From Asterias amurensis (Eukaryota; Echinodermata; Asteroidea; Forcipulatida; Asteriidae), in the NCBI RefSeq assembly GCF_032118995.1, contig NC_092651.1, forward strand, positions 15,439,349 through 15,503,348: DNA of 64,000 nt, in the 5' to 3' direction. A program made the translations under genes and the position numbers. Numbering within the stretch: the stretch's first letter is position 1; each line of letters starts with the position of its first letter. Under the pieces are notes generated by a model. It worked only from the letters and a program-made list of their open reading frames with translations. It did not search any database and was not told where the DNA came from. Positions 753 to 37,100 of this stretch are shown in pieces.

Positions 753-3700
753 CTTTAAGGGTCTTGTCTTTTGCTGCATTCTTCAACAATCTTGATGTTG
801 TATTTGCTCCACAGTGTGGGACCACAGCATCATTGCAGTCTCCTCCAGGGTGTCGATCATTCATCCGCAGTCCCTCTGCATTCTTTCTTGAGAAAGAGGG
901 TCTGGATTTAGTCTGAGCTTCAGTGGGATCAACAGTTGATGAGTCATACTCGGGAACCAGCGCAACAGAGGTTGTTCCTTCACCATGACTGGAACGCTGA
1001 CGTGAAACTCCTCCAGACTGCATTCCACTTACAGACACATCATCTCCAAGGAAGGCTTTGACTTGCTGTAAAGAAGTCCTAGACACGGACACTGAAGACC
1101 CTCTGGCAGTTTGGAAACCAAGAGGTATGGATGGTCTAGAGGCTTGATCAGAAGTGCTTTGATTCTTACCACTGGACGTGTTATGATGGAAGACTTGATT
1201 GGTGTTCCTATCGTCATCTTGGAAAAGACTTTGTGCTTTCCTTAAGGCAGCATCTGAGACTAAAACTTTGTTACCGTTGGCCGTTGAGAAACCTACGCAT
1301 GGCTGTGTGGTTCTAGGAGCAGTCACAGTGTCGTTACTATTGGCAAGGAATCTTTGAGCAGTTGCTAAAGCATCAGCTCTCACAGACACTTTGCTACCAC
1401 TGGCTGTTGAGAAACCTAGGCATGGCTGTGTGGTTCTAGGAGTTGGCACAGTGTCGTTACCATCATCAAGGAATCTTTGAGCAGTTGCTAAAGCATCAGC
1501 TCTCACAGACACTTTGCTACCACTGGCTGTGGAAAAACCTAAGCATGGCTCTATAGCTTTTGGGTGTGATAAAGTTCCGTCAGCATCTGCAAGGAATCTT
1601 TGAACATTAGCTAAAGATTCAGCCGATATTGTGACCTTGTCTCCACTTGCTGTTTGGAAACCATCAAAGAGTTTACGAGATTGGTTTGAAGTTTGTACAA
1701 GACCTGTGAGTGAACTCTCCCCTTTCTTTGATGCAGTAGCTTTTGATGGACTGGTTCTTTGATCTGTGTTAGGTTCACCATCAATATTTGCTAGGAATCG
1801 TTGAGCCTTTGTTAGAGAATCAGCTGATATGGTGACCTTCTTTCCACTTGCTGTTTGGAATCCAACAGAGGTTGGTGGAACATGTTGTGAAGAGTGTGAC
1901 TGACCCGAGTGTATATCTTCCTTATTATGTGAAGAAATCCCACTTGTTTTTTGAGCTATGTGCGAATCACCACCCTCTACCACCACTCTTCGGGTGTGTG
2001 TCAAGGATTCAGCAGATTTTCTGACCTTGTTTGTACCAGTAGTCTGGAAACCGACGTGTGGTGCTGGAGTTTTGTTAAAAGTGTTTACAGCTCCTTCTGG
2101 TACATCATTTTCCTCGTGAGAAGTAAACGTCTTTGAGGATCTGGTTTGTGACTTGGTCTTAGCATCATCCGTGTCTGCAAGAAGTCGCTGCATTTCAGCT
2201 CCGTCATCTCTCAGGAATTTGTGAGCTCTTGATAAAGCCTCTGCTGACACTGTTACTTTATTTCCACTGGCCGTCTGAAAACCACTACAAGCTCTTGGGG
2301 TTGAGCTTGCAATCTCCAAGGAGCCACCACACCTCTTATCATCTATCAGTACAGACCCTTGAGAATTTGTTTTTCTATCACAGCTGGCACTTTGTTTTCG
2401 AGATTCATCACTAGCTGTAGAAGCAATCTTTGAAAGTTTCTCCTCTTTCCTGAAGCCCACATCATCTCCTTCTAACACATGTCTCGCTCGTTTCAGCGAT
2501 TCTTCTGAGACGCTGACCTTACTCCCACTAGCTGTTTGAAATCCGACAGGAAATTTTGACAAAACGTTAATCATACCAAGACCCTCTGGAGCTCTTGAGT
2601 GGATTATTTCTTCTTCAGAAAATAAGTTCTTTGCTTTCTTTAGAGCCTCCTTAGATATCTCTACACGTCTCCCTCCTGCAGTCTGAAATCCAGAGAAATT
2701 TGAGCCGTTATGGAATGATTCCTTTTGATCTTGTGTTTGATCAGCAGGGTTGGTGTTAGCTTTTTGGCTTGCTTTCATTACACAAGAGTCTTCATACTTA
2801 GAGTCGGCATCAAGAAATGCTTTTGCCTTCCGCAAGGCGTCTTGTGCTATCTCTACCTTATTACCCCCGGCAGTTTTAAATCCTATGAATGTAGGTTTTT
2901 CTGTATTCAGAGAGGATGGAGTATTACTCCATGGAATTTCCATCTCACCAACTGATGAAGAAATGTTACTCTTGGGCAAGATCTTATTGATTTCTCTTTT
3001 GGAGTCTTCCTGCTGGCTGAAGGATATAGGAATAGTTACTTGGACTTCTGTTACATCTCCGGTAGAGAGTAGTTGGGATTGAACAAACGCTTGGTTTAAG
3101 GAATGATAAGTCTGGCTTGATAAGCCTTGCACCGCTGAAAGTAGCTCATGAAATGGCTCTTTGTCATCAGACACCTGATTGGCTGGTTGTTTAGAACTTT
3201 CCTGATTTTGAACATTTTGATTGGCCATCACTGCAGTCTCCAAGAGGGGACGAGCTGGGCCCATCCCTGGGATGAATTTTCCAACAGACAAATCCTCATA
3301 TTGTGAAAAGCTGTCCTCCTCTGCCTGCATGAAGGCATATGCAGACTCCATTTCTTCAGCAGCCTCTATCTCCCGTTGAGCTTGACTTGCAGTAAGAAAC
3401 TCCTCCTCAAATTCTATATCTGGAGTTCTTACCATTTCAACTGATGCAAAACCTTTTGAAGTGAACTCCATTTCCTGGGTTTCTGGTATACTTTCTAAGT
3501 TTAAGGATGGCACTGTTTTATCTTTTGTGGTCTCATATATTGTGGGCAGACAGTGTGACTGCTTGAGTAAAGTTTTTGATTTAGAAGGAGTCTTCATTTT
3601 GGCTGGAGCTTTGAATGGTCTAAATCCCTTGGGGAGGTTCCTGTAGTTGGTCTGAGGCTTTGAATCCCCCTGCCCACATCTACTCTGTTTGTGAGGTATT

Positions 3701-5741
3701 GGAAGCTCATTTGGTAAAGTGAGTGTTTCAGGACAACTCGTTTTGGAAGAAGCAGGCATGTCTCCTGAATCTTCAAACATGGCTCTTGCCTTCTTCAAGT
3801 CAACATCTGATATCTCAATGGATTTTCCTGAGGCTGAGGCAAATCCAGCGGTGGTTGGGATTTCATTTCCGTCCTTCTCAAAAAGTTGTTTAGCTCTTTG
3901 CAAAGCAGTTTCAGAAACACAGATTGGTTTTCCACTCGCAGAAGCAAATCCAACTTTAGAGGGTACCAGAGGGTCTCCAGCAAGAGCCGATGAGTTTAGC
4001 TCGGCAATTTCTAAATGTACGTCATGCTCTCTGATCACACTATTTTGAGTGATAGGTAACTCTTTGTCATTCTCTTTCTTCAGCAATGTAGATTTCATCA
4101 TTCCACTTTCTGATTGAGAAATGTTGTTTCCTCTTCTTGAGGCCAACTGCGCCGATGACTCTTGCTCATCATCCAGGAAAAGTCTGGCTTTCTGTAATGC
4201 TGATTCTGATATCTGAATAGCTTTACCGCTTGCTGAACTAAATCCAAGTATTTTAGGCTCTGCTCCTTTGCTCGCAGAGATGGATGGCATCGATGAGTTG
4301 GGATCTTTTGGGTCTTCCTCAGCAAAGAGTGTTTTGGCTTTGTTAAGAGCCGACTCTGAGATCTTTATAGCTTTATCGCTTGCTGAACTAAATCCAAGTG
4401 TCTTAGGCACTGCTCCTTTGCTGGTGGATGCAGAATCTGATGATGAGATCTGATCTTTTGGGTCTTCCTCAGCAAAAAGTGTCTTGGCTTTGTTAAGAGC
4501 CGACTCTGAGATCTTTATAGCTTTACCACTAGCTGAGCTAAATCCAAGTGTCTTAGGCATTGCTCCTCTGCTGGTGGAGGCGGTATCTGAAGATGAGATG
4601 GGATCTCTTGGGTCTTCCTCAGCAAATAATGTCTTGGCTTTGTTAAGAGCTGACTCTGAGATCTTTATAGCTTTACCACTAGCTGAGCTAAATCCAAGTG
4701 TCTTAGGCATTGCTCCTCTGCTGGTGGAGGCGGAATCTGAAGATGAGATGGGATCTTTTGGGTCTTCCTCAGCAAATAATGTCTTGGCTTTGTTAAGAGC
4801 TGACTCTGAGATCTGTATAGATTTGCTGCTGGCTGATGTAAATCCACCATCCACTGGTTTTTTGCTACTTCCAACATCATTATCCGACTCGGATTTTTTT
4901 TTCTGATTGTTTGGGTTTAGTTTGAGAGAATTTGTTGTGACTCCGATAGCTGATCTTTGTTTCTCACTGTCCTCATCGAATAAAGCTCTAGCTTTGTGAA
5001 GAGCAGATTCTGAGATATGAATTGCATTGCCGCTGGCTGAAGAGAAGCCAACAGTAGCAGGGATGGTCAGATTCTGAGTTTGAGAAACATCAGTCTCAAG
5101 ATTCCTTCGATGAACGGATCCATCCCATTCATCAGCAGCTAATTTGTTCGTCATTGAAGAAAAGTGCATATCGTCCTCCCCTGTTTGCCTTTGTATATCT
5201 TTTGATAGTGCAACATTGTTTGTTAGTTGTCGATGATCAGAGTCTCCTGTAGAAGTTGCTCCTTTGAGAATAAAACCACTTTCATCTGAGATTGACCCTC
5301 CATTAGATGTTTGAACGACAGATGTGCAAAGTTTGGTGCAAGGAGCCTTTTCGTTTTCAGAAATCTCTTCAGTCTTTGTTAGCACTCCCTTTCCATCGCT
5401 GCATCTAAAGCTTGACCCCTGGTGTTCATTCTCCAATGTGGTCTTCAATCTTTTTGGAGCAGGTAAAGCATGGGTATCTGTCCTTCTCCTGACCCTGCTG
5501 TAGCTTGAGTTGTGAGGACCCCTTCGACTCAGGGGTGTGGTTTGGCTCGTTGTGTTGGACGACCCAGACTGACCGTTAACATTGGATCCATCTGTTGCCT
5601 GATGCTTTGTCTGGCCATGCTGAATCGGTTTATCCTTGTATTGCACGTGTTTGTCGTGTAGCACTGTCACCTTGGTGGGATACATGAAACTTGGGGCTTG
5701 AGCTCTCTTGGAGTTGATGAAGTTGTTAAATGTCACAAAAC
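753..5741 (-). CDS. BRCA2: BRCA2 coding exon 7: giant BRC-repeat exon (human exon-11-like)
   Basis: A single 4989-base exon of about 1662 codons. It begins at acceptor TTTTCTACTCCAG with GFVTFNNF and ends at donor GTAAAC (752). The frame runs on to a stop near 661, but that tail (GKLCQFACFICF...) reads intron and is excluded. It carries 19 BRC repeats. In each, GFxxA supplies the Phe and Ala that fit RAD51's oligomerisation pocket, and a downstream LFxE/FLxD supplies the second RAD51 contact. An ~320-residue linker between repeats 8 and 9 holds a very acidic stretch (EFEEEFLTASQAQREIEAAE). Human exon 11 is similar in size but has 8 repeats. Confidence 0.97.
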
Positions 5742-8700
5742 CTGGAGTAGAAAAAAAGAAGAAAATTTTAATTAACTTTAATCATTTCAATGATAGGTAG
5801 TGTAAGAAGATATTCCTGAGGTTTTATTACAGGCCTGTATGCTTCGTTTTTGAGAGGGCAAGGGCACCAAGGCATTTTCTTCTTGGTAAAGGGCACCCTA
5901 TGAGGAAATTGCAAATTTGTACTGGAGCATTTCAAGGGTACCAAGGCAATGACCAGGGGACACGGAGGCAATCGCCTTCGTTGCCTCCGTGAAGTATCAG
6001 GCCTGGGTTTATCCAGCTTACTTTATAAATTTGTACTTAAAAATCAACCGCACAGGCTTTGCTCTTAAGTTTTTCAGTATTAGTCAGCAGGAACAGTTAG
6101 CTTGTCAATTCACTAGTCTGCCAGCTTTTCATGTTAAACAGGAATACTATTCCACTTGAAAGAGAATTTTGAGAAGTCTGGTATTTTTAACCGGCATTTG
6201 TCCAGCGACCACTGTTAAAGGGAAGGTACACAAGACCAGTGTTCTCACTTGGTGTATCTCAACATATGCATAAAATAATATGCATAAAATAACAAACCTG
6301 TGAAAAGTTGAGCTCAATTGGTCATCGAAGTTGGGAGAAAATGATGAAAGAAAAAACACCCTTGTTGGGCAAATTTGTGTGCTTTCAGATAGGAATAAAA
6401 TACTTCTAGCTAGAAGTCTTTTATTATTTTAGTGAGAAATTACCTCTACTTCAAAATCTATGCTACTTCAGAGGGAGCCGTTTCTCACAATGTTGTATAA
6501 TATCAACAGCTCTCCAATGCTCGTTACAAAGTCAGTTTTTAAGTTAATATTTGTTTTGAGTAATTACCAAACGTGTACATGTACCTTCCCTTTAAGGGAC
6601 AACGCTGCTACAATCTCAAATTGTGCTGCTGTGAACTTTGGTTTGTATAAATGAATATCATATGAAGAATATGTTTGAGGTCAGTTTTTTTATATCATTA
6701 CATTTAAATAAACACTGGACCGCAGAGTGGTCTTTTGTTTTTCAATTCAATAATAATAGGCTACCTCTTTGTGAAAAATCTGGTCTCTTTCCATTCTGTT
6801 GAATATCTAAGTACGCTTTACACATAAGACAAATGAGATCTACATGTATCTCATAGAGCTTTATACATTGACTAGAACACTAACTTACTATGCGTTTTGA
6901 AGCCACCCTGGGCGCAGACATGTTTGATGTGTTGCATGACTACAGAACGATTTTAATTCACATTAGTGCGTTTTTTGTACATTTGGCATGTGCGCTTACA
7001 TACGCGACTGCCTATTCGCGTCTGTCCGCACTACAAAAACCGTAAGTTCGACTTGAATGACGTACTTAAAAAAGTATTTTTTAAACATGACTCACATAGC
7101 GCTCGCAATTTGTACGCTCATCAGCAGATTGTGCGTTCACATTTGCTGCATTTTTTGGTTCGATGACACATAGAAAAGAACAAACGCACTATCGTGCAAA
7201 TAGCCGTACAATTGCCGTACAAAATTTCAAGATTTTGTATTGGTTTGTACATAGGGAACATGGATGCGCCCACACGGCATCAAAACTTTAGTGCGTGTAT
7301 AACAGGGTGTTAGCGCTCTAGTCAATATATATAGCTCTATGATGTATCTAGATCTTCTCTTAGAGCTAGTTCAACTCATTTTGATTCTGGTCTTGTAAAC
7401 TAAACTTTGAGCTACAAGCCCTGCAGTCTTGTGGTTTTTACCTCAAAATTTGAGCCCTGTAATACACACCAATGGTGAGCACCAATTTTGCACGGAGATT
7501 ATAGTTTGAATAATCATACAAATACAGTTGGTTCTTTGCAAAGAGATTGTGTCTCGTTTTACGTTAACGTCTTGGAACGATAAGGAGATTGCTGCTTGGT
7601 AAAAAGGGAAATGCTGAACAAAACTTGTGATTTCAAGTTTGCTGTGCCTTACAAAAAAATTGGAGGGAAAGAGGATATCAGCACAAAATTTTCTAGTACG
7701 GTTGTTATCTTAATGCTCCTTAGTATAAAAAAAAAATGTAAAAAAATGCAGTATTAGTTGATTTATATTTCAGTCAATGGTTACATTAGCGACAAATGCA
7801 AAACTAGACAGGTGGTAACTCAAAATTAGCCCCAAGGTTTTTCTGAGATTTTCCGAAGGTTAAAGAGCCCAAGTTCAATGTCGAGTTACCGCTTGTTTAA
7901 TTTTGCATTTTTCCCATACCTGAGTTTCTCTGAGCAGGGGTACTGCTGTATGAGCGGGAATTGTTTCTGTGTGTTGGTTCCACCGTTGCCTTCTCGTTGT
8001 CAGCGATTGGCCCAGGCTCTGAGATCTCCTGCTTATCTTCATCAGACTTGACCAGTACAGCCTCCGACATCCACTGCATTGCTTTGCGACCACCAGTTTG
8101 ACCTGGGTTACATGAGCCAGCAGGGTAGAAGAACCTCCTTGTGGTTGTTGCTCTGGGCTGCATCTTAAAAAGCTGGCTTTGCAAGTCCTTTTCTTTGATG
8201 TTTGAACAATTCTCAGAGTCCTTATCTTTGAAACTTAAATCATTCTCATTTGGTTTTGGTTTGAGATCCTGGACGGATGCTTGTTTATCAAGAGTTAAGA
8301 TTGGCACAGGTGGTTGAGGTATGTTTTCAATTGAGGAACTTTTCATGGATCCTGATGGTAGTATGCAAGTATCGGGCTTGGCGTTACAAGAGACGGAGTT
8401 ACCTTGGCTCATCTGAATCTGTTCTGGTGGGTTAAATGGAGGAGAAGCTTTCCTCAGCTGGTTGTTGGTCTCAGAGACTTGGTCCGTCATACTGCACAAT
8501 GCGTTAACAAATTCGGGCGAGATTTGTGAGAAGATATCTGGACTGTCTATATTGGGAGCAGTGTCTAGTTTTCTTGTTTGCTTCAGAGGCGTGAGGTTAG
8601 TAACGTCAATAGAGATGGTTGCTGGCTTACATGCATCAGTGAGTTGATGATCTTTAATCGAAGTTGGAATTACATTTGGCTGAGCTGAAATATTTGGCAA

Positions 8701-11700
8701 ATTGTTGATACTAGCTGAATGACTCAATACTTCAGGGGATGCATTTAAATTTTCAGTCAGTATTAGGTCACCTCTTAACACAATGACACTGTCATCTGCT
8801 GTCATTCTTGCATCCTCTTCTGACACTACATGGAAGAAGTTTCCCTCAGTATCAAAGTTTGTGCTTTTGCATGATGCCTGACTAACTTGGGTCTCAGACA
8901 TATTCTCAATAACTTCCTTCAAGGAGCCATCTTCTTCCTGAATCCTTACAACAGTTTTTCGACTGCGAGTTGTTCTCATTTCTTTCTCACTCATCTCCTG
9001 AGAGGATTCTCTAACGGCACTCTCTAAAGGCAAGTCTGGACAGCGAAAACTTTCCAGTTGCCTAGCTTCTTGGATTTCGTCTGCTGAGTCTCGGTGCTCA
9101 CTCAAACAGGCTTGATGTATTCTTTCCTCAATCTCCTTCATTTGCTTCTGCTTCTTCAAATTTGCAATCCTACTTCTTGTCTGCGGAGGTGTAAGAAAAA
9201 AGAAGGCAAGAGTGTCATCTAGGCGGCTCTTCTCGACACCTGAGAGCCCCGAGACATTGGGTGAAGAGCTGTCCAATAGGTCAGCAGTAGATTGCTGACT
9301 ACAAGTCTGTACCGTCTGTACACTGTGGCTGCTTTGCTTTGGTTTGTCAAATGGTTGGCCTGATGTTACCCTTGTTTGATTCTCAAGAAGGTTGTCTGTG
9401 TTATGTTGCTGGGTTGGAATCGCAGATGAGCATATCTTGACTGTCTCTGCATCATCACCATCATCTTCCGCAGTGGCTTGGATTAAGATTTCACATGTTT
9501 TCTTGATGTCTTGTTTCCCGTCCTCTGTCCTGCTTTGTATATCCGTTGAAATGCTTTCCTGCTCTTCTAGTCCTGACACGCAATTAGAGTGACTTGGACC
9601 CTTCTCCTCCTCGCCACCACATCCTGTTCTCCCTCCTTGAGCGTCGCCGTCCACCTTCTTGACTTTCCCTGCCTCTTCACCATCCACATGATCACTTTCT
9701 AGTGTATCTCCAAGAATGTCCTCATCAGCTGATGACATGTGAAGGCTCTGAAGGTGTACAGTGCTTGCCTGGCTGTCGTTGTCAATCCTTCCTCTGGACG
9801 GAGTGTGACAGTTTGGGGTCTCGATACAACTTGTGAAGAGGGCCTTTGCAACAACCTAAAAAACATTAAATCAAACAAAATTTATTATGGTTTTCATCAG
9901 TAATTATAACCGACTTTTTTGGACACACAAAGAGGGATTTTGAAAACCCGTTTTTGTACGTACCACCGATATCAGACATTCCATTGAGTAGCATGAACAA
10001 GCATGCACTCACCCAGCAATGCTTCATTTTCCCAATGAAGGAAGAAGTGTACAAGAATTTTGCAAAAAGACACTTTCAACTTTACAGTTTCCCTATAATT
10101 TCACGCTTTCCCTAAAAAGAGAATTTATGAATGGGAATAAAAGAGTAGTGACTCTGTCTCAATTGGTCGTTAGAATCTTTTTATATCGGCCGATTAAGCC
10201 ATCGTCGCAAATCTTTTATTCCCTTTACAATTTATCCATAACAATGATTCTGAATTATTCTTACCGTGGATTCCTCATTCCAGTCGTTGGGAAAGAGTGA
10301 CTTCTTAGTCGATGTTGTGTCTGTTGCTCCTTGTGGAGTAGCTAGCGAGCTTGTCCAAGACAGATTTGAATCATTAAGATCTGCCCCTAGACTAACGGAC
10401 ATCCGAACAGGAGTACTCTAAAAAATATAAAGAAACAAACAATACTTAAAGGCAATGGACACGTTTGGAAATTGTCAAAGAACACTATTCTCACTTGGTG
10501 TATCCCAACAAATGCATACAACAAATCTTTGAAAATTTTAGCTCAATTGGTCAGCGAAGTTGCAAGACGATATTGAAAAATAAAAAATAAAACCTTATGG
10601 CAAAAATTTGTTTGTTTTCAGATCCCTGAGAAAGGCTTCAGGCCTGAAGTCTTCCTCAGATTCAAATATTTGGGTGATAAATATTAAATCTGAGGGAGTC
10701 GTTCTTTTGTACAATGTTTTATACTTTATGTAATCAGCAGCCCTCCGTTGCTTGTTACCAAGTTAGTTTTTATGCTATACAATTTTAGTAATTACCAAAC
10801 ATGTCCAGTGCCTTTAAGGCTATTGCGTCAGGTGTGCTAGCAGAGTTCTCCTTAAAGGGTGTTGCCAAAACCAAATTGCAATTGGGAAAAAATTCACAAA
10901 GTTACACACAAAAGACAGGTAACTTTTTAGCGCGCTGTGACTGAACAGTTTAGTGCATTTCACTCATGTGCTGGTTGTGAGTCACCAAAGTGTGGGTTTG
11001 ATTTTGTGAAAACCTTGCATCAATTGGGGACCTTTTAGATGCTAGCTGGCAGCAGATTACCTAGTTAATCCATTATTTCATTGTAGATGCTCAGTTAAGT
11101 GCGCATGCTAAGAAAAACGTAAAAAACTGCTGCCACCAAGTGTTCAAAATGTTTGCATTGCACAACAGAGGCTCAGCAACTTGAAGCCATAAGGTTCACC
11201 CTGGTAATTCATGTAATTCATTTCAGATAAAATGTCAAACACATCAATTGCGTAAATGCTGTTTTTAATGCACAAAACCCCCCAAAATGTTACAACAGTA
11301 CTTTGAAGTTCAACTCACCAAACAAGGTCCTGGAGTTGTAAAACTGAAGTCGTCTAGTTTCATCAAGCTTGAAGGCGTTTTAAAAAGTTGCTTCATGAAG
11401 GTGGGTGTGGTCTGCTTATGGGTTGAATTCCAACACGGACTGGGATCTTGAAGAGCGCTCTGTTCAACTGAAAATGGACTGTCTCCTAACAGTGACGGTG
11501 TCTGTCTCAGTGTGTTGCCCTCTGCAACTGGCAAGTTTGGGGTGATAGGTACTAGACTTGGAGTTTCTGGACTGATACCTGTGTAGATAAAACATATTTT
11601 GTTATTCTAAATTCAAGTTTTTGGCCATGACATGAATCACTACTCACTGTGAATGAAGATGTATGTAATACAATTTAGCTTCATGAGGCCTAGTCCTCGA

Positions 11701-14700
11701 GTTTTTGAAAACAACAGTGAAAGTCACAGAGCAATGTTTTCAGGAAAGTTGCATAAATTTGTTGTCGTGCTAAAATAATTTTTGTCTTCTCATTGAGAGA
11801 AAAACTATTTTTGTGAAATTGTTTTACTCATTTCTCAATGACTGTGTAACATTACGTAAATCTGTGATCTTCACGATTTTTGTTTCTTACCAATTCTGTA
11901 ACGTTCCTTTAAATGAAGAGTTTCCTCAGAGTTTCATATGAAAAAGAGGTAAATCTAGTGCATGTATATAACAGGGTGAGGTTCATTCCATGTACAGCCA
12001 GGAGCTTCCTTTGATCGTGACGACCCAGCCCCTATAATTTCATTATGATGTGAATTGAATTGTGTGCCTCATTTTTGAAAGGGCAAAGGCACCAGGGCAT
12101 TTTCTCCTTTGGTAAAGGGCACCCTAAGAGGAAATTGTAAATTTCTACTGGAGCATTTCAAGGGCACCAAGCCAATGACATGGGCCCAATTTCATAACCT
12201 TGTAAGCATAAAAACCTGCTAATCACAGAAAAGTGTTGCTTAACAGAAACAGGTTACCAGCCAAAAGTACATTAAAGGAACACGTTGGGAGTCAAATTGT
12301 TGACTCCCATAAATGGCCGACCGTGTTAGTTCGCAAAGCAAAAGGAAAACCATGCAATTTTGAGGCAAATTTGTGTGGATCATTGTATTCTACTTTTAAA
12401 ACATCTTTCCAGCCATTATTATGCATTTTATAACAAATGGTTACAAATGCTTTTTATAGACCAACTCGTCCGATCCAAGGCAACGTGTTCCTTTAAGTTT
12501 AGACTGTTGTGACTGATGCCCCACTCAATTTTTGCTTAGCAATGATATTTTTCAAGCAGTATTTTCTGCTTTAAACCGCTTATAAAATTGAGCTCAGAGG
12601 GCATGGAGGCAATCGCCTTTGTTGCCTCCGTGAAGTAACAGGCCTGCTTACCATTTCTAATGGGATGGTTGGATGTCCTAGTGAAGTATTGCCTCCCATC
12701 ACACTGTCTCTGTACTCCATGATGTCGTTCATCGGGTGTGAACAGCGATGGAGGGGAATAGAAGGGGTGAGGCGTCCCAAGATCAACCTTGAATATCGGA
12801 ATTAAAACTTTGAAAATTACACCACAGCTCCAAACTCTTTCACTCGTAAAAGTTTACTATTTAATTTGATTATGTCTATTTCCAGAAGAGTTGTGGAGTA
12901 TCTTTGAAATTGAGTCCGAAAACACTGGTGACCAAGACCCAATTTCAAGCCTGTTAAAGACACTGGACACTATTGGTAATTGTCAAAGACCAGTCTTCTC
13001 ACTTGGTGTATCTCAACATATGCATAAAATAACAAACCTGTGAAAATTTGAGCTCAATTGGTTGTCGAAGTTGCAAGATAATAATGAAAGAAAGTTACCT
13101 TGTTACACAAAGTCGTGTGCTTTCGGATGCTTGATTTTGAGACCTCAAATTCTAGATCTGAGGTCTCGAAATCAAATTTGTGGAAAATTACTTCTTTCTT
13201 GAAAACTACGTTACTTCAGAGGGAGCCGTTTCTCACAATGTTTTATACTATCAACAGCTCTCCATTACTTGTAACCAAGTAAGTTTTCATGCTAATTATT
13301 ATTTTGAGTAATTACCAATAGTGTCCACTGCCTTTACAAACATTGCTTAGCACAACCAAAATTACATTAAGTTTGCAGTTTGTTTTCCGCTCAACTGTTG
13401 CTTAGCAAAGAAGTTTGTCGAGCAGCATTTTCTGCTTGACATTTTATACGACATTGGGCACAGTTAGTTTTTAAGTTAGACCCCCCTTGGCATGGAGTTT
13501 GGCAAGGCCAAAGAATTCAACAATGGCCCTTTCCAATCCTCGTCTTAGATTAGGTTTTATGTTGGAAACACTGTGAAAAATGTTAGCTGCCCAAAAAGTG
13601 TAAAAATTACCTCATCACTGGCTTTACGATGCCTGGAGGGCGTTTCACCAATATCAGAGAAATGTTTGAGGGATGCAACTCCTTCAAGACTTTCTACTTG
13701 GGGCTCCTTACATTCCAGGTCCTTGCCAGAGTCTCCTGAAAGTGAAAGTATGAAAGTTGTAAGAAATTATTTGCTCAGGGATTCATAGACCAGTCACACT
13801 ATGTACATGTACATGTGTAAAGCCCGGTTCATACTCCCTGCAAGTGCAAAAATGCAAAGCAAATTTTGACGCTACAAACAGTTGAGATGTGCTCAACTCC
13901 TGCGCAACTGTGCGTGATGAAGATAAACAAGCAACACCCTATACATGAAACATCCCTTTATGAAACAATCCACACAGCTAACAGCCTGCAACATGCAAGT
14001 CCAGCTTCCTTCTGGAGATAGTCTCAGCAAACCGGTTGAAATATCAAGTTGTTAAAGACACTGGACACTATTGGTAATTGTCACATTTGGTGTATCTCAA
14101 CATGCATAAAATAACAAACCTGTGAAAATTTGAGCTCAATCGGCCGTCGAAGTTGCAAGATATTAATGAAAGAAAAAAAAACTTGTCGCAACATGGTCAC
14201 ACGAAGTTGTGTACTTTCAGATGCTTGATTTCGAGACCTCAGATTCTAAATCTGAGGTCTCAAAATCAAATTCATGGAAAATTACTTCTTTCTCAAAAAC
14301 TAGGTCACTTCAGAGTGAGCTGTTTCTCACAATGTTTTAAATACTGTCAACCTCTCCCCATTACTCGTTACCAAGTAAGATTTTATGCTAATAATTATTT
14401 TGAGTAACTACTAATAGTGTCCACTGCCTTAAAACCACCTTAGCCCAATTTCATAGAGCTGCTTTTAAGCACAAGAAGCACAACAAAGGTACGCTTACAA
14501 GAACAAGCTTACCAAACAAAATTACCATCTCACATGTGCAGTGTTCTATCTGTGACTGGTGTCCTGCTTACTTATTGCTAAGCATGGTTTTTTAAGCAGT
14601 GTTGTCTGCCTCAGCAGCTCTATGAAATTTGGCCTACTTCTTTTCAGAACATCAACAACACATAGAGAGTTATTTCACAATGTGCAAAACCTTACTCAAC

Positions 14701-14962
14701 AGTCGACCATGTTTTTAGAATGTGACTTGGACCACTTACCACCATTACTTGCAGCTTTCTCAAACCAGTTGGGGTCCACCGGTCCCAAGTCATCTCTGTC
14801 GACTCCGTTAAGGAGTGAGGAGAAACCAGTGGATGAGGATTCACATCGTGAGCCACCTTTCCCTTTGAAGAGGAGGGGACGCTTGGTGCGTCCACTCAGT
14901 TGGCGTATGTTGGTGCTGCTGAGTTGCGAATGAAAGCTCCCTTTCACAGAGACAGACTTCAT
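753..14962 (-). CDS. BRCA2: BRCA2 homologue, 5' seven coding exons (3' part outside window)
   Basis: Homologous-recombination mediator that loads RAD51 on single-stranded DNA in the nucleus. Coding exons in transcript order: 14962-14740, 13735-13611, 12787-12652, 11578-11319, 10417-10265, 9855-7920 and 5741-753. All junctions are GT/AG and the phases agree throughout (1,0,1,0,0,1,1), giving about 2607 residues. Diagnostic parts are a PALB2-binding motif (LGPVDPNWFEKA, near residues 59-70), a LSWTSSLATP segment matching human BRCA2 residues 193-201, and 19 BRC repeats in the last exon. The helical/OB-fold DNA-binding domain and the C-terminal RAD51 site are not encoded here; the last donor (GTAAAC at 752) points to exons beyond the left edge. 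The start ATG at 14962 is the first in-frame ATG after a plausible 5'UTR acceptor. Identity is very secure; individual small-exon borders are good but untested by transcripts. Confidence 0.97.
1036..5049 (-). repeat. BRCA2: Array of 19 BRC (RAD51-binding) repeats inside BRCA2
   Basis: The GF codons of repeats 1-19 lie at 5044-5049, 4840-4845, 4690-4695, 4540-4545, 4390-4395, 4240-4245, 3946-3951, 3841-3846, 2878-2883, 2686-2691, 2539-2544, 2278-2283, 2047-2052, 1858-1863, 1657-1662, 1534-1539, 1411-1416, 1288-1293 and 1114-1119. Repeats 1-8 follow GF(S/A)SASGKxIxIS; repeats 9-19 follow GF(Q/S)TASGxKVxVS. Repeats 2-6 are spaced exactly 150 bp and repeats 16-18 exactly 123 bp. Repeat 13 is degenerate: FQTT in place of FxTA, and VVVE in place of LFxE. 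Confidence 0.95.
5830..6006. mobile_element. Short repeat with CAGGCCTG ends, copy 1
   Basis: Begins CAGGCCTGTATGCTTCGTTT and ends GTGAAGTATCAGGCCTG. The body contains GGGCACCAAGGCATTTTC-like and GGAGGCAATCGCCTTCGTTG segments, with a small hairpin around GAGGCAA/TTGCCTC. Related copies lie at 12056-12646 (interrupted), 31497-31679, 54645-54742 and 62683-62805. No coding capacity. Confidence 0.7.
6215..6595. mobile_element. MITE, family A, variant ends
   Basis: Member of the main MITE family in the window, with ends of the TTAAAGGGAAGGTACAC type rather than TTAAAGGCAGTGGACAC. It shares the internal blocks CTCACTTGGTGTATCTCAAC and AGAGGGAGCCGTTTCTCACA. The central hairpin is ACTTCTAGCTAGAAGTC. 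Lies in a BRCA2 intron. Confidence 0.8.
7920..9855 (-). CDS. BRCA2: BRCA2 coding exon 6 (large, human exon-10-like)
   Basis: A 1936-base exon encoding 645 residues, entered in phase 0 after acceptor AATGTTTTTTAG and left in phase 1 at donor GTATGG. The protein is mostly disordered, acidic and Ser/Thr-rich, with no BRC repeat. Recognisable patches are FFFLTPPQTRSRIANLKKQK followed by a basic, helical KEIEERIHQ stretch, and SPDIFSQISPEFVNAL. Its position directly before the BRC exon matches human exon 10. The frame is open about 39 codons upstream of the first internal ATG (9738), so that ATG is not the gene start. Confidence 0.92.
10265..10417 (-). CDS. BRCA2: BRCA2 coding exon 5: conserved SWxSSLATP segment
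   Basis: A 153-base, 51-codon exon in phase 0 at both ends (acceptor TATTTTTTAG, donor GTAAGA). It encodes STPVRMSVSLGADLND, then NLSWTSSLATPQG. The latter aligns with human DMSWSSSLATPPT, which contains Ser193, a PLK1 phosphorylation site linked to mitotic and midbody functions. The Ser-Trp pair and SSLATP are preserved. This strongly supports BRCA2 rather than another BRC-repeat protein. Confidence 0.92.
10446..10817. mobile_element. MITE, family A
   Basis: Ends TTAAAGGCAATGGACACGTT and, inverted, GTCCAGTGCCTTTAA. The central hairpin is CTTCAGGCCTGAAG. Sits in the BRCA2 intron just upstream of coding exon 5. Confidence 0.8.
11319..11578 (-). CDS. BRCA2: BRCA2 coding exon 4
   Basis: A 260-base exon with acceptor TATCTACACAG and donor GTGAGT, entered in phase 1 and left in phase 0. 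It encodes 86 residues rich in Ser/Thr-Pro (TPSLVPITP, QTPSLLGDSPF, FKTPSSLMKL, FTTPGPC), which are potential CDK/PLK1 docking sites. It corresponds to the human region between the PALB2 motif and the MSWSSSLATP segment. Confidence 0.82.
12056..12646. mobile_element. Three-level nested insertion (CAGGCCTG repeat / GGGCCC MITE / AACACGTTG MITE)
   Basis: The outer CAGGCCTG-type repeat is split: left part about 12056-12181, right part about 12596-12646. Inside is a palindromic MITE (12182-12595) starting GGGCCCAATTTCATAA and ending TTATAAAATTGAGCTC. That MITE is itself split by an inner element (12273-12498) with inverted ends TTAAAGGAACACGTTG and CAACGTGTTCCTTTAA. The order of insertion is readable from the interruption pattern. 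Confidence 0.75.
12273..12498. mobile_element. Innermost MITE with AACACGTTG terminal repeats
   Basis: Inverted ends ATTAAAGGAACACGTTGGG and CAACGTGTTCCTTTAA are separated by about 195 bases. An internal palindrome GGAGTCAAATTGTTGACTCC lies next to the left end. No coding capacity. Confidence 0.75.
12652..12787 (-). CDS. BRCA2: BRCA2 coding exon 3
   Basis: A 136-base exon starting in phase 0 (acceptor TTCAAG, a weak pyrimidine tract) and ending at GTAAGC in phase 1. It encodes 45 residues including SPPSLFTPDER, resembling the human NLFKTPQRKP segment that follows the PALB2 motif. The exon lies immediately beside a nested transposon cluster (12056-12646), whose right edge ends only a few bases from the splice donor. 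Confidence 0.78.
12953..13336. mobile_element. MITE, family A
   Basis: Near full-length copy with ends TTAAAGACACTGGACACTAT and ATAGTGTCCACTGCCTTTA. The central long hairpin is GAGACCTCAAATT...ATCTGAGGTCTCG. In a BRCA2 intron. Confidence 0.85.
13611..13735 (-). CDS. BRCA2: BRCA2 coding exon 2
   Basis: A 125-base exon with acceptor TTTCACTTTCAG and donor GTAATT. It takes one base from the previous exon and reads 41 open codons ending in phase 0. The sequence is acidic and low in recognisable motifs (GDSGKDLECKEPQV...SRHRKASDE). It is placed here by phase continuity and splice sites rather than strong homology. An opposite-strand open frame covers the same bases and is a shadow. Confidence 0.78.
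14052..14433. mobile_element. MITE, family A
   Basis: Near full-length copy in the first BRCA2 coding intron. It shares the TTTCGAGACCTCAGATTC hairpin centre with the copy at 12953-13336, and a short deletion removes part of the left subterminal block. Confidence 0.85.
14443..14634. mobile_element. Palindromic MITE, family B (GGGCCCAATTTCAT ends)
   Basis: Ends CCCAATTTCATAGAGCTGCT and, inverted, CAGCTCTATGAAATTTGGCC. It lies directly beside the family A MITE, so two unrelated elements abut within about 100 bases of the first BRCA2 coding exon. Confidence 0.75.
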
Positions 14963-25900: not shown

Positions 25901-28834
25901 ATCTGGAAAAATTTTTTTTTTTTTTTTTCCTTTGTGTCAAACTGTCTCTTCAACATCTGGAAAGGCTATTACTAATTACCTTAAAGGCAAGCACAATTTA
26001 TGGGACTTAGGGCATTGCATGATGAGGTATCAATATAAATTTCTGGCTTGCGGTAACACCATGTGTGTTTCTACTTGCCATGTATAGTTTGTTCTTTAGA
26101 GAACTGTCTTGCTTTATATTCTACTACCGCGGAGTAGATTTTTCGTGTTTTTCTACACAATTTTTAGTTATTTCATCCCCTAAAATGGCGAGACATTGGG
26201 TATAGAATTAAAATAATAATAATAACTCTTTACACAGCGCATTTCACAATAACCGTATCAATGCGCTTTACAGTGCCCTGGTCATAGGGCCAATAACATC
26301 CCTTTTAATGTTTCTCAGTATACATACAACCTGGGCAACCTCCAAAGGCTTTTTCATTCACAATATCAACCTCTACCCTCGCAGGTACCCATTTGTACAC
26401 CTGGGTGAAGAGAAGCATTTATAGTAAAGTATCACACATGTGTCACGACCAGGATTCGAACCCTCACTCTGGTGACTTGGCACCAGAACTTGAATTTGAT
26501 GCTGTTAACCACTCGGGCATACTACTGAACTACAATAATTAGTTTGCGCAAATACGGCAGACAGAAAAGGATTTGAGGGTGCGGGAAAACCGCATGTATG
26601 CATGAACAGACCTCGTATATACTGCCTTTGACCGTGTGCAACCATATGGTGCAGCACAGGTCATCGTAACCATGGAGGTAGAAATTGTATAACAAATCAC
26701 TGTCAGCAATATTGCAAATCATCAATGGGACCAATGAGCCAAAGCTATTGAACAAAAGAATAATATCTGCAATGTGAGACAAATTTCCCAAAGCCTGCAA
26801 TACAGATAATAAGCTTGTTATATTTGCTGTATATAATTTATTTTAGAGTTCATGAGAAAGTACACGCAGAGGGCATGCTACAGAGTTTTGAAGACACGTA
26901 GACATATAAAAACTGTTTTTAATTCATTGCCAAACTACGTTTCAATTTCGCGAATCTAAACCCGAATTCCTATTGGAGGCGCAATGGTATAAAAGACAAA
27001 CCAAATACCATATGAATCTGCTTGAAAGACAGTTTTTGGTAGCAGGGTTTTGGTGGTGGAAAAATCCCAAAAGCATGCATTTGTATTATCAAATCATTGT
27101 TTTGCCATGACATGAATCCCTACTCACTGTGATAAAAACACCCATTATAAAAACACCCTTGTTGCACAACAGTTCTGTGCGTCTTCAGATGCATAATAAA
27201 AGTATTTTATCATTTGAGTGAGAAATTACTGCAGTGGGAGCTGTTTCTCACAATGTTTCATACTACCAACATCTCTCCATTGCTCGTTACCAAGTAAGTT
27301 TGTATGCTAACAATTATTTTGAGTATTAATAACCAATATTCTCCAGTTCCTTTAGAGGATGTGTAGAGGTCACCATAATTATTGAGATAATGGTATGAGC
27401 TTCTGGCTACTTTCTCATGAGCAGTACCGTAGCTGAGACCATAAAGAAAGGACCCCTTTCTCTATGCTGAGACCTTGACACGTAGAACCTTGAGGTCATA
27501 CCTAAGAATGTGTGGTGGCTTCACTTCACTGTCATAGTTTGCTGTTTGCCTGAGGCCTTGGGTTAAGGTTGCTCAATAGCAGGCAAAACAAGTTGTCTGA
27601 TCGCTTATGAAAAGTATTCCGAGGTGATGTGAAAAGAAGGTGCAGAAAGGCTGTATGCCACTATGGGTCTTTCTAGCTTGCAACTTCGGTTCAATATAGG
27701 CCTACTTAGACACAAATATCGGACATAAAAAAAAATTAATGTTCCATATCAAAAAATCTTAAATCCTAAACAATTTGCTGGCAGCCACCGGTTTCCAGAG
27801 TGTTGTGCTCATTGAGCTTAATTCTGGTTGGGAAATTTTTTAATTGCCCCAAAAAATTATGGGGAACAAGTTACACGTCCTACAAAATAACAGCTAAAGT
27901 GAATCAATATTAAATGGTAGTTCCAACTGGTGGCTGAGTCTACAGGCGGGCCCTACCCGATTGGTGTAACAAATTATTGTGTAACTCTTTGGGCGAGTTC
28001 GGGGGAAAATGTTGTAAAATTAGACTAAGTGTCAGTGAGCCTTGAATCATTGAGCTATACAAAGCAAATTGAAGAAAAGTATCCTATACCAACCACTTTT
28101 TCATTCGTTATGAAATAAAATAGTATCTATAATTTATACTCAAAAAGAGATTTTGGGGGGCAAAAATACATGAAAAGGGGTGGCAGGATGCGGACAGTTC
28201 TGTCCGTATCCTGCCACCACCTTTTCACATATTTTTACGAAAAAGGAATAGTCTCTTTTAGGTAAATTAAATCACATTTCATTTCATAGCGATTGAGAAA
28301 ACGTGGTGGCAGAATACGGACACTTTTCCCATTATAAGACCATGGAGGAAGAATAAGACTAAACTCACATTCTGGGAGAAAAAAACCTACTTGAAATGGG
28401 CGTTGTCGACAAACATTTCTCAGTCTTGCTTTAAAAAAAACTTACAATACAAAGTGTGAAATAAGACTCTATGGCAAACTCACCGTGGTATCTCCTTCAA
28501 CAAGAACGATCCTCAGTGGAGGTTGTCCGGGAAGCCGTCTTTCCGCGTCCAACCTCCCCAGGAAATAAGCCACATTGGCCCCGATGATTCCGCTCCCAAC
28601 TACCACAATGTCTGCCTCTGTCGGTACCTGTTGTTTCGGGTAGCTTTGCCCTTCATTCCCCGGTGCTGACGATGTCATCCATAAGGGTCTCTCCGTATGG
28701 ACCGGTCTAGATCCACCATCCGTACACCACAACCATCCATACCCAACTCTACGTTTTGTGAGATTGTAAGAACTTGACAGAATTCTACGGATGTTCCGGG
28801 AAACTACTTGTGAGGCCATCAGCAATTCATGCAA
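19963..28834 (-). CDS. FOXRED1-like mitochondrial FAD-dependent oxidoreductase, 8 exons
   Basis: Exons in transcript order: 28834-28484, 25181-25071, 24380-24259, 24040-23946, 23477-23293, 21824-21519, 20757-20659 and 20220-19963 (TAA). They splice in matching phases to 508 residues; human FOXRED1 has 486. A basic, Ser/Arg-rich leader (MASQVVSRNIRRILSSSYNL) suggests mitochondrial import. The FAD-binding Rossmann motif ADIVVVGSGIIGANVAYFLG is near residue 74. Other family blocks are SFGGIRQQFTIPEN, FPWIKTDDIILGSFGSKNEGW and NLYMATAFSGHG. FOXRED1 assists assembly of respiratory complex I; related enzymes oxidise N-methyl amino acids. Two family blocks are eroded: the PRKR segment reads TEAAVRHH, and SGHGxQQAP reads SGHGIMHSS. 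It may therefore be a diverged paralogue. Two in-frame ATGs (residues 1 and 7) compete as start. Confidence 0.88.
22631..22964. mobile_element. MITE, family A (opposite orientation)
   Basis: Starts TTAGTCACTGGACACTAATG and ends TGTCCAGTGCCTTTCC. The central hairpin is GACTTCAGGCCTGGAGCC. Lies in the FOXRED1-like intron 21825-23292. Confidence 0.75.
24068..24200. mobile_element. SINE body fragment (80-bp-array relative)
   Basis: Contains GATGGATGATACTCAAGCCTACATCC and CCCTGTTTCAGCCCAGGAG, the same unit found tandemly amplified at 39771-40168. It lies in the short FOXRED1-like intron between 24041 and 24258, so nearly the whole intron is this insertion. Confidence 0.65.
25318..25693. mobile_element. 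MITE, family A
   Basis: Full-length copy, ends AAGGTAGTGGACACTATTGG and ACCAATAGTGTCCAGTGTCT, with the TTTCGAGACCTCAGAAATAG hairpin centre. In the 3.3-kb FOXRED1-like intron 25182-28483. Confidence 0.85.
26205..26520 (-). mobile_element. tRNA-derived SINE with class II (Leu/Ser-type) tRNA head
   Basis: On the minus strand the head (26520-26441) reads ATGCCCGAGTGGTTAACAGC, then a long variable-arm region, then GGGTTCGAATCCTGGTCGTG, i.e. A and B boxes of a class II tRNA. A body of about 200 bases with GCGCTTTACAG-like text follows. The element ends in a (TTATTATTATT) tail. This is the most complete copy of the family; diverged fragments lie near 49770-49900, 51030-51090 and 39598-39725. Confidence 0.7.
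27135..27357. mobile_element. MITE, family A, truncated
   Basis: Only the right two-thirds are present: AACACCCTTGTTGCACAAC through CACAATGTTTCATACTACC to CTCCAGTTCCTTTAG. Left end missing. Confidence 0.65.
28060..28330. repeat. Palindromic repeat with TGGCAGGATRCGGA motif
   Basis: GGTGGCAGGATGCGGACAG is followed by its inverse CTGTCCGTATCCTGCCACC, with a third copy near 28300. The same motif and flanks appear at about 16620-17045 in the BRCA2 spacer. A non-coding dispersed palindromic element in the FOXRED1-like first intron. Confidence 0.55.
28484..28834 (-). CDS. FOXRED1-like exon 1: transit peptide and FAD-binding Rossmann motif
   Basis: 117 codons from the first ATG to donor GTGAGT (28483) in phase 0. 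About 70 residues of positively charged, Ser-rich leader precede the beta-alpha-beta dinucleotide fold with GSGIIG (GxGxxG). The exon closes with IVLVEGDTT, where the acidic residue at the end of beta-2 binds the FAD ribose. The next exon resumes FAETASMHSFGGIRQQF, aligning directly with human YTQASTVLSVGGVRQQF, so no exon is missing across the 3.3-kb intron. Confidence 0.9.
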
Positions 28835-34198: not shown

Positions 34199-37100
34199 TC
34201 ATAAAATCTCCAGCATCCTCTTAAGTTCTATCATTGTTTGCCAGTCACTTTTTTGGAGGTCATCGCGGAAGTATTTCTTGACAGCGTTGATGGATTCCCG
34301 AGATATCTGCAGATAGCAACAAAGACCGCAAAAAACACATTATATATACATACATACAACAGAGCATTTATAAAGCGCCTTTTCGTACAAGATCAAAGCG
34401 CAATGAAGTGAGCAAACCAACGGAACTATACTACAACATATTACATTTGAAACTGATAAGTTTTTAGAGATTTCTTTAAAACTGGCAAAGAGTTTCAATT
34501 TCTAATGGATTCTGGAAGGTGGTTCCACATTTGGGGAGCAACATAGGTGAAAGTACCGTTGTGAGCAGATGAGAGTGTGCCGATGGTTGAGTGTTCAGAA
34601 AGGCGTGTGGTGTCGAAAGTTGATTGCAAGCTTGAGCGTGGCGGTTAGTAGAGAGCAAGGTAAGATAATAAAAAGCCTGGTGCTATTTCTAGGAGACACT
34701 ACACTCTCTGACAGCAACTGTATTTAATCTTAAAAACAAAGTCTTGTGTGACTTACTCTGCTGATGAGGATGTCTTGGCTGTCAAAGTGTCTGCCGTACA
34801 TCTTAGGTGCATCCCCGCCGGTATTCTCAATCTTAATACAGACCTCCTGGCCTTTACGAGCCGTCTCTACGTTCTTGTGGTTGACCTCGATACTTGAGAC
34901 AGCACCTAGTACAATACACTGTGCAATAGAAGGAAAATATAAAAAGAGTGAAATTAACATACGGTATTTGGCAGCACAGGCTGTATAAACCCTTTGCATA
35001 TGACGCCACTCTCTAAAAGCACCACCCTTGGGCCAAAAGGAAGCAAATCATTGGACGATAGCTATTCTTTGAGTGTAAAAACATGCGCGCAACCTCACTG
35101 ATAGTGTTTCGCAATATGCATGGGATCTATTAATTTCCACAGACACCTTACACAATGCGAACACACCTCTGAGCCATACGCTTCTGCCATTTTAGGAGTT
35201 GAATCTTTCAGCATGTTTGTGCAAGATTTTGACTCCCAAAATGGTGGACAGCATGGGCGCGTGTGAGAACACTGTGCATTGTACAATGGGAGCTGAGAGG
35301 ATTTAAGGGATGAAACAAATGGCCAAGTGACCAGGGTAAATAATGTTGAAGTGCCACAAGCGTCACTGAATGACAGATTTGAGCGCTTTATACAAAGCCA
35401 CCGTTATTATTATTCATACTCGGCTCAAAAGGACTGTGGTCCAGTGGTTAGGCTTGCAACCACAAGATTCGGGGTTCGAATCCTACCAAGCAAACCACTG
35501 ATTTCACAATGACTAGAAAATGAATTGCCATCTAGATACTGATTCACAACGTCTTGATTTGTGCACTTCTTAATGATAGAAGTTAAACAAATTTTTGTAT
35601 GAGAGAGATTGGCTGTTGCCAGCATGGCATTTATACCCCTTATGGGTGTTTGCCGAGTTCCCTTGATAGGATGACAGGAGAGCATCTAGACAGGAACTAT
35701 GTTTCTTTCAGACAATCCTTCGGGCTCCAGCTGTTTCTTTCTTTCTGTTCCTCTTTATTTAAATTGCTCATTGCTGTATCTTTTAATGTTTTTACCTTAT
35801 AAATGTGCATTGTACTTTTTATCTACCCAAGAAATGAAATAAATATAAATATAAGAATATAAGCAAACAAACAAACAAACAAACTAACAGACCTCCTTGG
35901 ACGGAACACAGATCGGCGTCCCAACTTTAACGATCCCAGCCTCCACCATGACCCCAACGACGATGGGGTTCCGGGCGTTGAAGATAAACTGTGGCATCAC
36001 CTTGAGCTTGCACGGGAAGATTGCAATGTTTTTATGCTCCTCCCTCTGTTTCTGCTTGATCTCTTCTCTGTACGCCATGAACCGATCGAAGAGATGGTAG
36101 ATGATGTCTGCCTGGAAGATCTTGATGCCCTCCCGGTCGGCCATGTCTTGGGCGTCACGTTCAATCTTCACATCGAAAGCCAGGATGACGGCATATCTGT
36201 GGAGATCGTGAACATAGTAGAGAAGTTTCAAAAAGGGTTACGAATACATTAGGCCTGGGCGAATTATTCGAATATCCGGTTAATGGCGAATAGGTTTTCC
36301 TATCCGTAACCGCGAATGCCTTTTTTTTCTTAACCGGATATCCGCATAGGGCGCGAATAGCTATTTATAAACCGGATAGTTCTGTAATTACAACCAAGTA
36401 ACCGGATATTCTTTAATATCCGAATATCCGCGGACGTCGGGCGACAACTGACATGAATGTTTTGTCTGAATCCTAATGAAACTTCTATTAAGACAGCATA
36501 AAACAGCATAAATTAAGTATTTAACTATGCTCACCTCCGTGAAGAGTCAAAACAATGACATTTCTGACGTAATTTGTTCAAAGATTACAAAAGTTTTCCT
36601 TCACGTAGAGTCATCCACGATCAAAAGAAAAAGCAAATCGCCATCTTTAAATTAGATCCGGTCATTTTTATGAATGAACCGAGTGACACTGTCTAAAACT
36701 AATATCAATCCGCCCAGAAGATCTCATTCACAAACGAACAGCGCCCTCTAGCGACAAAAAAAAATATTTTTCTAAATATTTTTTTATTTTTATTTTTTTT
36801 ATAGCGCCCTCTAGCGGCGAAAAAAACTATTCAAATATCCGGTTAATTTCGGATAGTTGGCCAGCGGTATCCGAATAACAAAATTTCACTATTCGCCCAG
36901 CACTAGAATACATACACAGGTACAGATATGTCAACACTTTTGCCCACAGCAGCATTTGATGGAAAGCAATTTCAGAAACATTTCACTTTGAAGTAATCTT
37001 GTTATGTAAAAAAGATATCAGTTTTTTTATGCACATAAAGTTTAATCTGTGAAGCCTTACTGCAAGAACGTGTATTCCTTATAGGATTCCTAATAGGGAT

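Follow-up and report, generated by a model that had tools for sequence, protein, structure and literature searches.

Introduction

In human BRCA2, eight BRC repeats are reported to bind six or more RAD51 molecules, likely as many as eight (PMC10083600). Counts given for other organisms include 15 repeats in Trypanosoma brucei TREU927, variable between strains, 14 in Trichomonas vaginalis and 10 in Anopheles (PMC2408642), and 7-11 in Drosophila pseudoobscura (PMC2882388). Here we describe a BRCA2 gene on the minus strand of a 64,000-nucleotide stretch of DNA (the window, meaning that whole stretch), in which 19 BRC modules lie in a single exon. We read it as an echinoderm BRCA2 ortholog, most likely from a sea star that is neither Patiria nor Acanthaster; its BRC exon has expanded to 19 modules in two blocks, partly by local tandem duplication (probability about 0.88).

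Published work is split on whether repeat number determines how much RAD51 a BRCA2 protein can handle. BRC number has been called 'clearly overspecified', a single repeat being described as enough in Ustilago and in fusions (PMC10083600), and mouse embryonic stem cells are reported to be viable with one repeat, several repeats conferring resilience under stress (PMC12803100). In T. brucei, by contrast, repeat reduction is reported to impair both recombination and RAD51 localization (PMC2408642). Our literature search returned no survey of BRC repeats in echinoderms, sea urchins, molluscs, Branchiostoma or invertebrates, with most subscription journals lying outside the search.

Results

The exon encodes 19 modules of the form GFxx(A/T), of the GFxxA...LFDE kind, at positions 1036-5049, and thus at the very coordinates and in the number that the initial annotation had proposed. 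A hidden Markov model (HMM) built from these modules and iterated on 86 homologs recovered all 19, whereas 197 proteins, each shuffled once as a control, gave no match at a domain E-value of 0.1. The Pfam BRCA2 repeat model (PF00634), which the initial annotation had suggested as a check, matched 18 stretches (E 1.1e-144). By sequence, the nearest solved structure was that of human BRC4 with RAD51 (1n0w_B, E 7.7e-4). FxxA is retained in 18 of the 19 modules, the exception being module 13 (FQTT), which scores 12.9 bits with our HMM, all other modules reaching 22.4-42.0. At the LF position every module has two hydrophobic residues, and in 18 modules an acid comes within the next four residues, module 17 (ANSN) being the exception. 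The earlier claim that 18 modules keep both RAD51 contacts therefore holds for FxxA alone; FxxA and the acid occur together in only 17.

The modules fall into two blocks, with 321 residues between the start of module 8 and the start of module 9. Block I (modules 1-8, 28 codons each; 3763-5049, minus strand) has GF codons ending, in plus-strand numbering, at 5049, 4845, 4695, 4545, 4395, 4245, 3951 and 3846. In Block II (modules 9-19; 1036-2883, minus strand) they end at 2883, 2691, 2544, 2283, 2052, 1863, 1662, 1539, 1416, 1293 and 1119, and the degenerate module 13 occupies 1969-2052 on the same strand. All Block I modules are FxSA and all Block II modules are FxT(A/T), so that position three of FxxA is Ser in 8/8 modules on the upstream side of the linker and Thr in 11/11 on the downstream side. 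The residue in strand 2 follows the same division, being Ile in 8/8 and Val in 11/11.

The BRC exon spans 753-5741 on the minus strand (4989 bp, 1663 codons, phase 1 at both ends), is bordered by GT and AG, and lies within a frame that is open from 5781 to 661 (1706 codons). The window frame is 100% identical to P0001, a public BRCA2 protein of 4035 amino acids, which is a gene model and not a cDNA (complementary DNA). P0001 contains the exon whole, in line with the single-exon array described in the initial annotation, together with the DNA-binding domains: beyond the window it carries the helical, OB1, OB2, OB3 and Tower domains, each above its Pfam cut-off. Because P0001 joins the whole BRC exon to the helical, OB1, Tower, OB2 and OB3 domains, we take the gene for a true BRCA2 ortholog, as first annotated. 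In a tree of the DNA-binding domain (20 BRCA2 proteins, 540 columns), the window grouped with Patiria and Acanthaster at a support of 100/99, and urchins, sea cucumber and crinoids were more distant; this placement agrees with the echinoderm origin assumed earlier. Since the exon comprises whole codons with equal phases at its ends, a transcript skipping it would remain in frame and would encode a BRCA2 without BRC repeats. Human exon 11 likewise comprises whole codons with equal phases.

Part of the array arose by tandem duplication. Tandem Repeats Finder (TRF) detected a 150-bp array over modules 2-5 (4205-4846, minus strand; 4.3 copies, 89% matches) and a 123-bp duplication over modules 16-17 (1265-1550, minus strand; 2.3 copies, 90% matches). 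The same modules cluster in a tree of modules, 2-5 at 97/90 and 16-17 at 98/88, and their DNA identity is 80-93% among modules 2-5 (50 codons) and 92% between 16 and 17 (41 codons). Before and after the linker, there are 8+11 modules in the window, 4+8 in Patiria and 4+7 in Acanthaster; hence both blocks are larger in the window, and of the three lines only that of the window has the two tandem arrays. A module-by-module orthology with the two sea stars was tried and set aside, as only 5 of 39 inner branches were firm in an alignment of 36 columns and 42 modules. Among the core pairs 3-4, 3-5 and 4-5, there were 1-2 replacement changes per ~66 sites against 2-6 silent changes per ~18 (for 3 versus 5, 2.0/65.8 against 6.0/18.2). 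Turnover of repeat number has been reported in Drosophila (PMC2882388) and in T. brucei (PMC2408642).

An exon with two short tandem arrays might also be over-expanded or collapsed during assembly, in which case the number of modules would be an artefact. We consider this very improbable. The copies are unlike each other at the identities given above, which argues against one copy having been duplicated by the assembler, although further copies may have been collapsed; moreover, the frame is open throughout, and large arrays are also present in sea stars and other relatives.

The initial annotation had singled out the number of modules as special. We compared it with a survey set chosen for resemblance in the DNA-binding domain (the best 120 of 452 proteins), a choice that is independent of BRC content and that includes several proteins per species or isoform. 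By our HMM, 12 of these 120 proteins have at least 19 modules. They comprise 2 of 10 echinoderm proteins (range 11-27), all 7 amphioxus proteins (range 19-30; hybrids are included, and some proteins share a species), 1 of 2 lophotrochozoans (Owenia with 40, Lingula with 15) and 2 of 100 vertebrate proteins (median 10, range 4-20); the single hemichordate protein has 14. This is the comparison with echinoderms and hemichordates that had been proposed, and with 7/7 amphioxus proteins at 19 or more it does not bear out a special number. The closest kin of the window have 12 (Patiria) and 11 (Acanthaster), crinoids 13 and 17, and the sea cucumber 15. Among 35 non-vertebrate proteins, the window included, which came partly from a search favouring BRC-rich proteins, 18 have at least 19 modules, as have 29 of all 197 proteins. 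Counts among the non-vertebrate proteins were 32 in Mya, 27 in Strongylocentrotus purpuratus, 24 in Lytechinus pictus, 23 in Ruditapes and 19 in the psyllid Diaphorina. Our first homolog search favours BRC-rich proteins, and the named tables are restricted to proteins with an organism name. Nineteen was also considered as a record: it lies above the published 15, 14, 10 and 11, but database proteins go higher. The largest array among the proteins examined was that of Owenia fusiformis (P0096), with 40 modules. The array in the window is thus large yet not unusual, such numbers being common in invertebrates.

The counts depend on the model used. Pfam and our HMM gave, respectively, 32 and 40 for Owenia, 20 and 32 for Mya, 14 and 17 for Antedon, 25 and 27 for S. 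purpuratus, 12 and 12 for Patiria, and 18 and 19 for the window. Our HMM itself misses some diverged modules, since the mammals of the set score 6-8 where 8 are known.

A doubled module number could be adaptive, in that such a BRCA2 would load or hold about twice as many RAD51 molecules and be favoured by regeneration or a large germ-line output. The binding of at least six, likely up to eight, RAD51 by the human repeats (PMC10083600), the repeats reported to be required for efficient recombination in T. brucei (PMC2408642) and the intact FxxA of 18/19 window modules are in its favour. Yet the two sea stars have only 12 and 11 modules and the crinoids 13 and 17, amphioxus, bivalves and a psyllid reach or exceed 19, and one repeat is reported to suffice in mouse embryonic stem cells (PMC12803100) and in Ustilago (PMC10083600). 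We therefore judge the adaptive account improbable. The link to regeneration made in the initial annotation draws no support from the counts, which were not formally tested against regeneration, and a RAD51 capacity that scales with module number is only a possible candidate property of this protein.

The division into blocks is shared beyond the window. In ten ambulacrarian proteins with the linker motif (below), Ser occupies position three of FxxA in 33/36 upstream modules and Thr does so in 133/136 downstream ones, and in Owenia the figures are 6/6 and 34/34. Together with the strict 8/8 versus 11/11 split in the window, this could mean that the blocks are two functional classes comparable to human BRC1-4, which bind free RAD51, and BRC5-8, which bind RAD51 on DNA (PMC9545528, PMC10083600), and that the linker between them is a hinge or a place of docking. 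However, the likeness to the human classes may be no more than an analogy. Thr is found on both sides of the linker in Branchiostoma lanceolatum, Thr predominates upstream and Ser downstream in two scallops, and the Ile/Val contrast is blurred downstream in urchins. Tandem duplication within each block, moreover, amounts to shared descent and would yield such a split without any functional difference. We thus regard two functional classes as possible but rather doubtful.

The linker contains the motif KGFRPFKAPAK (3598-3630, minus strand), found by pattern search. The pattern (K/Q/R)G(F/Q)(R/K)PFKxP matched 43 of 197 proteins and none of the 104 vertebrate proteins, a set in which human was not included and other primates were; the motif was also absent from the two crinoids checked. 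O. fusiformis has two copies of a KGFRPFKxP-type motif. RAD54 and Sfr1 have similar PFKxP sequences. A second conserved stretch, SQAQREIEAAEEMESAYAFMQAEEDSFSQ and its neighbours around SQAQREIEAAEEMESAYAFMQ (3301-3396, minus strand), is common to other echinoderms and is partly present in 7/7 amphioxus proteins (E about 0.001). The linker marked by these two elements (3301-3396 / 3598-3630) includes an acidic SQ-rich stretch.

The linker also contains LESIPE (3481-3498, minus strand), a putative motif that fits the PP2A-B56 docking pattern LxxIxE. Three of 15 proteins checked have L..IPE, namely the window, Patiria (LQSIPE) and Acanthaster (LESIPE), and the other 12 do not. In vertebrates, the highly conserved region between BRC1 and BRC2 is reported to bind PP2A-B56 (PMC8484605) and to dampen RAD51 binding (PMC9959916). 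The linker resembles that region in its similar place, a putative LxxIxE-type motif and a T-x-S-Q stretch, and SQ sites are present in both. As an echinoderm form of the vertebrate region it was nevertheless rejected, the profile tests failing in both directions: comparison of the linker with the vertebrate region gave E 0.068 and a probability of 0.8 on a scale of 100, and an HMM of the vertebrate region gave nothing better than E 4 across 26 invertebrate proteins, although two sharks matched at E 4e-6 or better. From these profiles we read the linker as probably a separate or unrecognisably diverged element, which may dock a putative regulator.

Relatives of the window differ in the FxxA tetrapeptide itself. 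Gly replaces its Ala in 60/101 modules of five sea-urchin proteins (P0088, P0007, P0017, P0015 and P0090) and in 24/30 modules of two crinoid (feather star) proteins (P0099 and P0110). Elsewhere the replacement was found in 0/42 modules of the window and two sea stars, 1/15 in the sea cucumber, 2/14 in the hemichordate, 8/170 in amphioxus, 0/220 in ten lophotrochozoans and 7/1012 in vertebrates. These Gly modules otherwise score well. In urchins they are confined to the array's downstream part, and in Antedon they are found from the first module on. Because the terminal module of the array has Gly in the sea cucumber, the hemichordate and B. floridae, the pattern suggests that one old Gly module was later multiplied.

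In a tetrapeptide assay, FHTG is reported to be ~6-fold weaker than FHTA (PMC4855620), and a Gly mutant of a Leishmania BRC to lose about threefold, the reverse change in a second Leishmania repeat gaining little (PMC9162458). As large arrays can be rich in Gly and Gly binds more weakly in these assays, RAD51-binding capacity need not follow from module number alone. The RAD51 proteins of Amphiura, Holothuria, Apostichopus and Acanthaster, among 120 matches listed, all have an FTTA self-association motif. As for an adaptation of urchin or crinoid RAD51 to FxTG, these 120 listed matches included no protein from a named urchin or crinoid.

The remainder of the gene in the window was mapped by its match to P0001. 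The minus strand carries the 5' part of BRCA2 in eight coding exons, from the ATG at 14962 to an exon cut at base 1. The first coding exon (14740-14962) is followed by exons of 125 bp (13611-13735), 136 bp (12652-12787), 260 bp (11319-11578), 153 bp (10265-10417) and 1936 bp (7920-9855), the last preceding the BRC exon; downstream of the latter, the next exon (1-119) is cut by the window end, with the DNA-binding domain beyond. Read by eye, the first coding exon encodes DLGPVDPNWFE at 14759-14791 (minus strand; P0001 residues 58-68), which we take to resemble the human PALB2-binding motif. Two open reading frames noted by eye in the list of frames are situated 5' of BRCA2, also on the minus strand: 28469-28834, presumably an exon of an FAD-dependent oxidoreductase like FOXRED1, and 35884-36237, presumably an exon of an EIF5B-like translation factor.

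Discussion

The 19 modules, the full-protein domains, the two tandem arrays and the block split together describe a sea-star-like BRCA2 with an enlarged BRC exon. Several observations weigh against this reading. Module 13 is without FxxA and module 17 without the acid. In P0001, the C-terminal TR2 RAD51-filament site scores only 20.2 bits against a Pfam cut-off of 27, and the tree behind the sea-star placement was built without a brittle star. The contrast between replacement and silent changes is weaker in module pairs 2-3 (4.5 versus 3.5) and 16-17 (3 versus 3). Finally, the T. brucei result indicates that repeat number can matter (PMC2408642).

How such an array might work can be proposed from human BRCA2. 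Each FxxA hairpin would dock in the self-association pocket of RAD51, and the hydrophobic-acidic patch that follows would dock at a second RAD51 site, so that at breaks the array may deliver several RAD51 molecules to single-stranded DNA. Module number would drift through slippage or unequal crossing over, with the modules staying usable and largely redundant rather than being tuned to regeneration.

A broader and more tentative scenario, which we think somewhat unlikely as a whole, starts from an early bilaterian BRCA2 with two BRC sequence classes around a KGFRPFKxP linker. The window's line would have multiplied both classes, nearly all modules being FxxA, and urchins and feather stars would have multiplied FxTG, likely a weaker RAD51 binder, with number and strength tuned separately. 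The linker would then be an undescribed docking or control site, lost or unrecognisable in vertebrates.

About eight BRC repeats are not the animal norm, as many of the invertebrate BRCA2 proteins examined have 13-40. Large arrays, together with those of urchins and feather stars in which Gly modules abound, offer natural contrasts for asking why BRCA2 carries several BRC repeats rather than one, and the conserved linker between the blocks is a concrete site at which to seek a partner or a switch of BRCA2. Follow-up is best directed at the division into two blocks, at the linker and at the Gly-rich arrays found in relatives.

Compared with known systems, the window is closest to Patiria miniata (P0003) and Acanthaster planci (P0004), which have the same domains, linker motif and two-block split, with all modules FxxA, but only 12 (4+8) and 11 (4+7) modules against 8+11. 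O. fusiformis and S. purpuratus (P0088) have large arrays parted by the same linker motif, with 40 and 27 modules by our HMM (32 and 25 by Pfam), of which 17/27 in S. purpuratus are FxxG. With human BRCA2 the window shares FxxA/LFDE-type BRC modules placed ahead of helical-OB-Tower domains, and it differs in having 19 modules where eight repeats are reported (PMC2408642, PMC12803100, PMC2882388). T. brucei BRCA2 is similar in the recent tandem growth of its BRC number, but the 15 putative repeats of TREU927 are described as near-identical and strain-variable (PMC2408642), whereas the modules of the window are mostly diverged.

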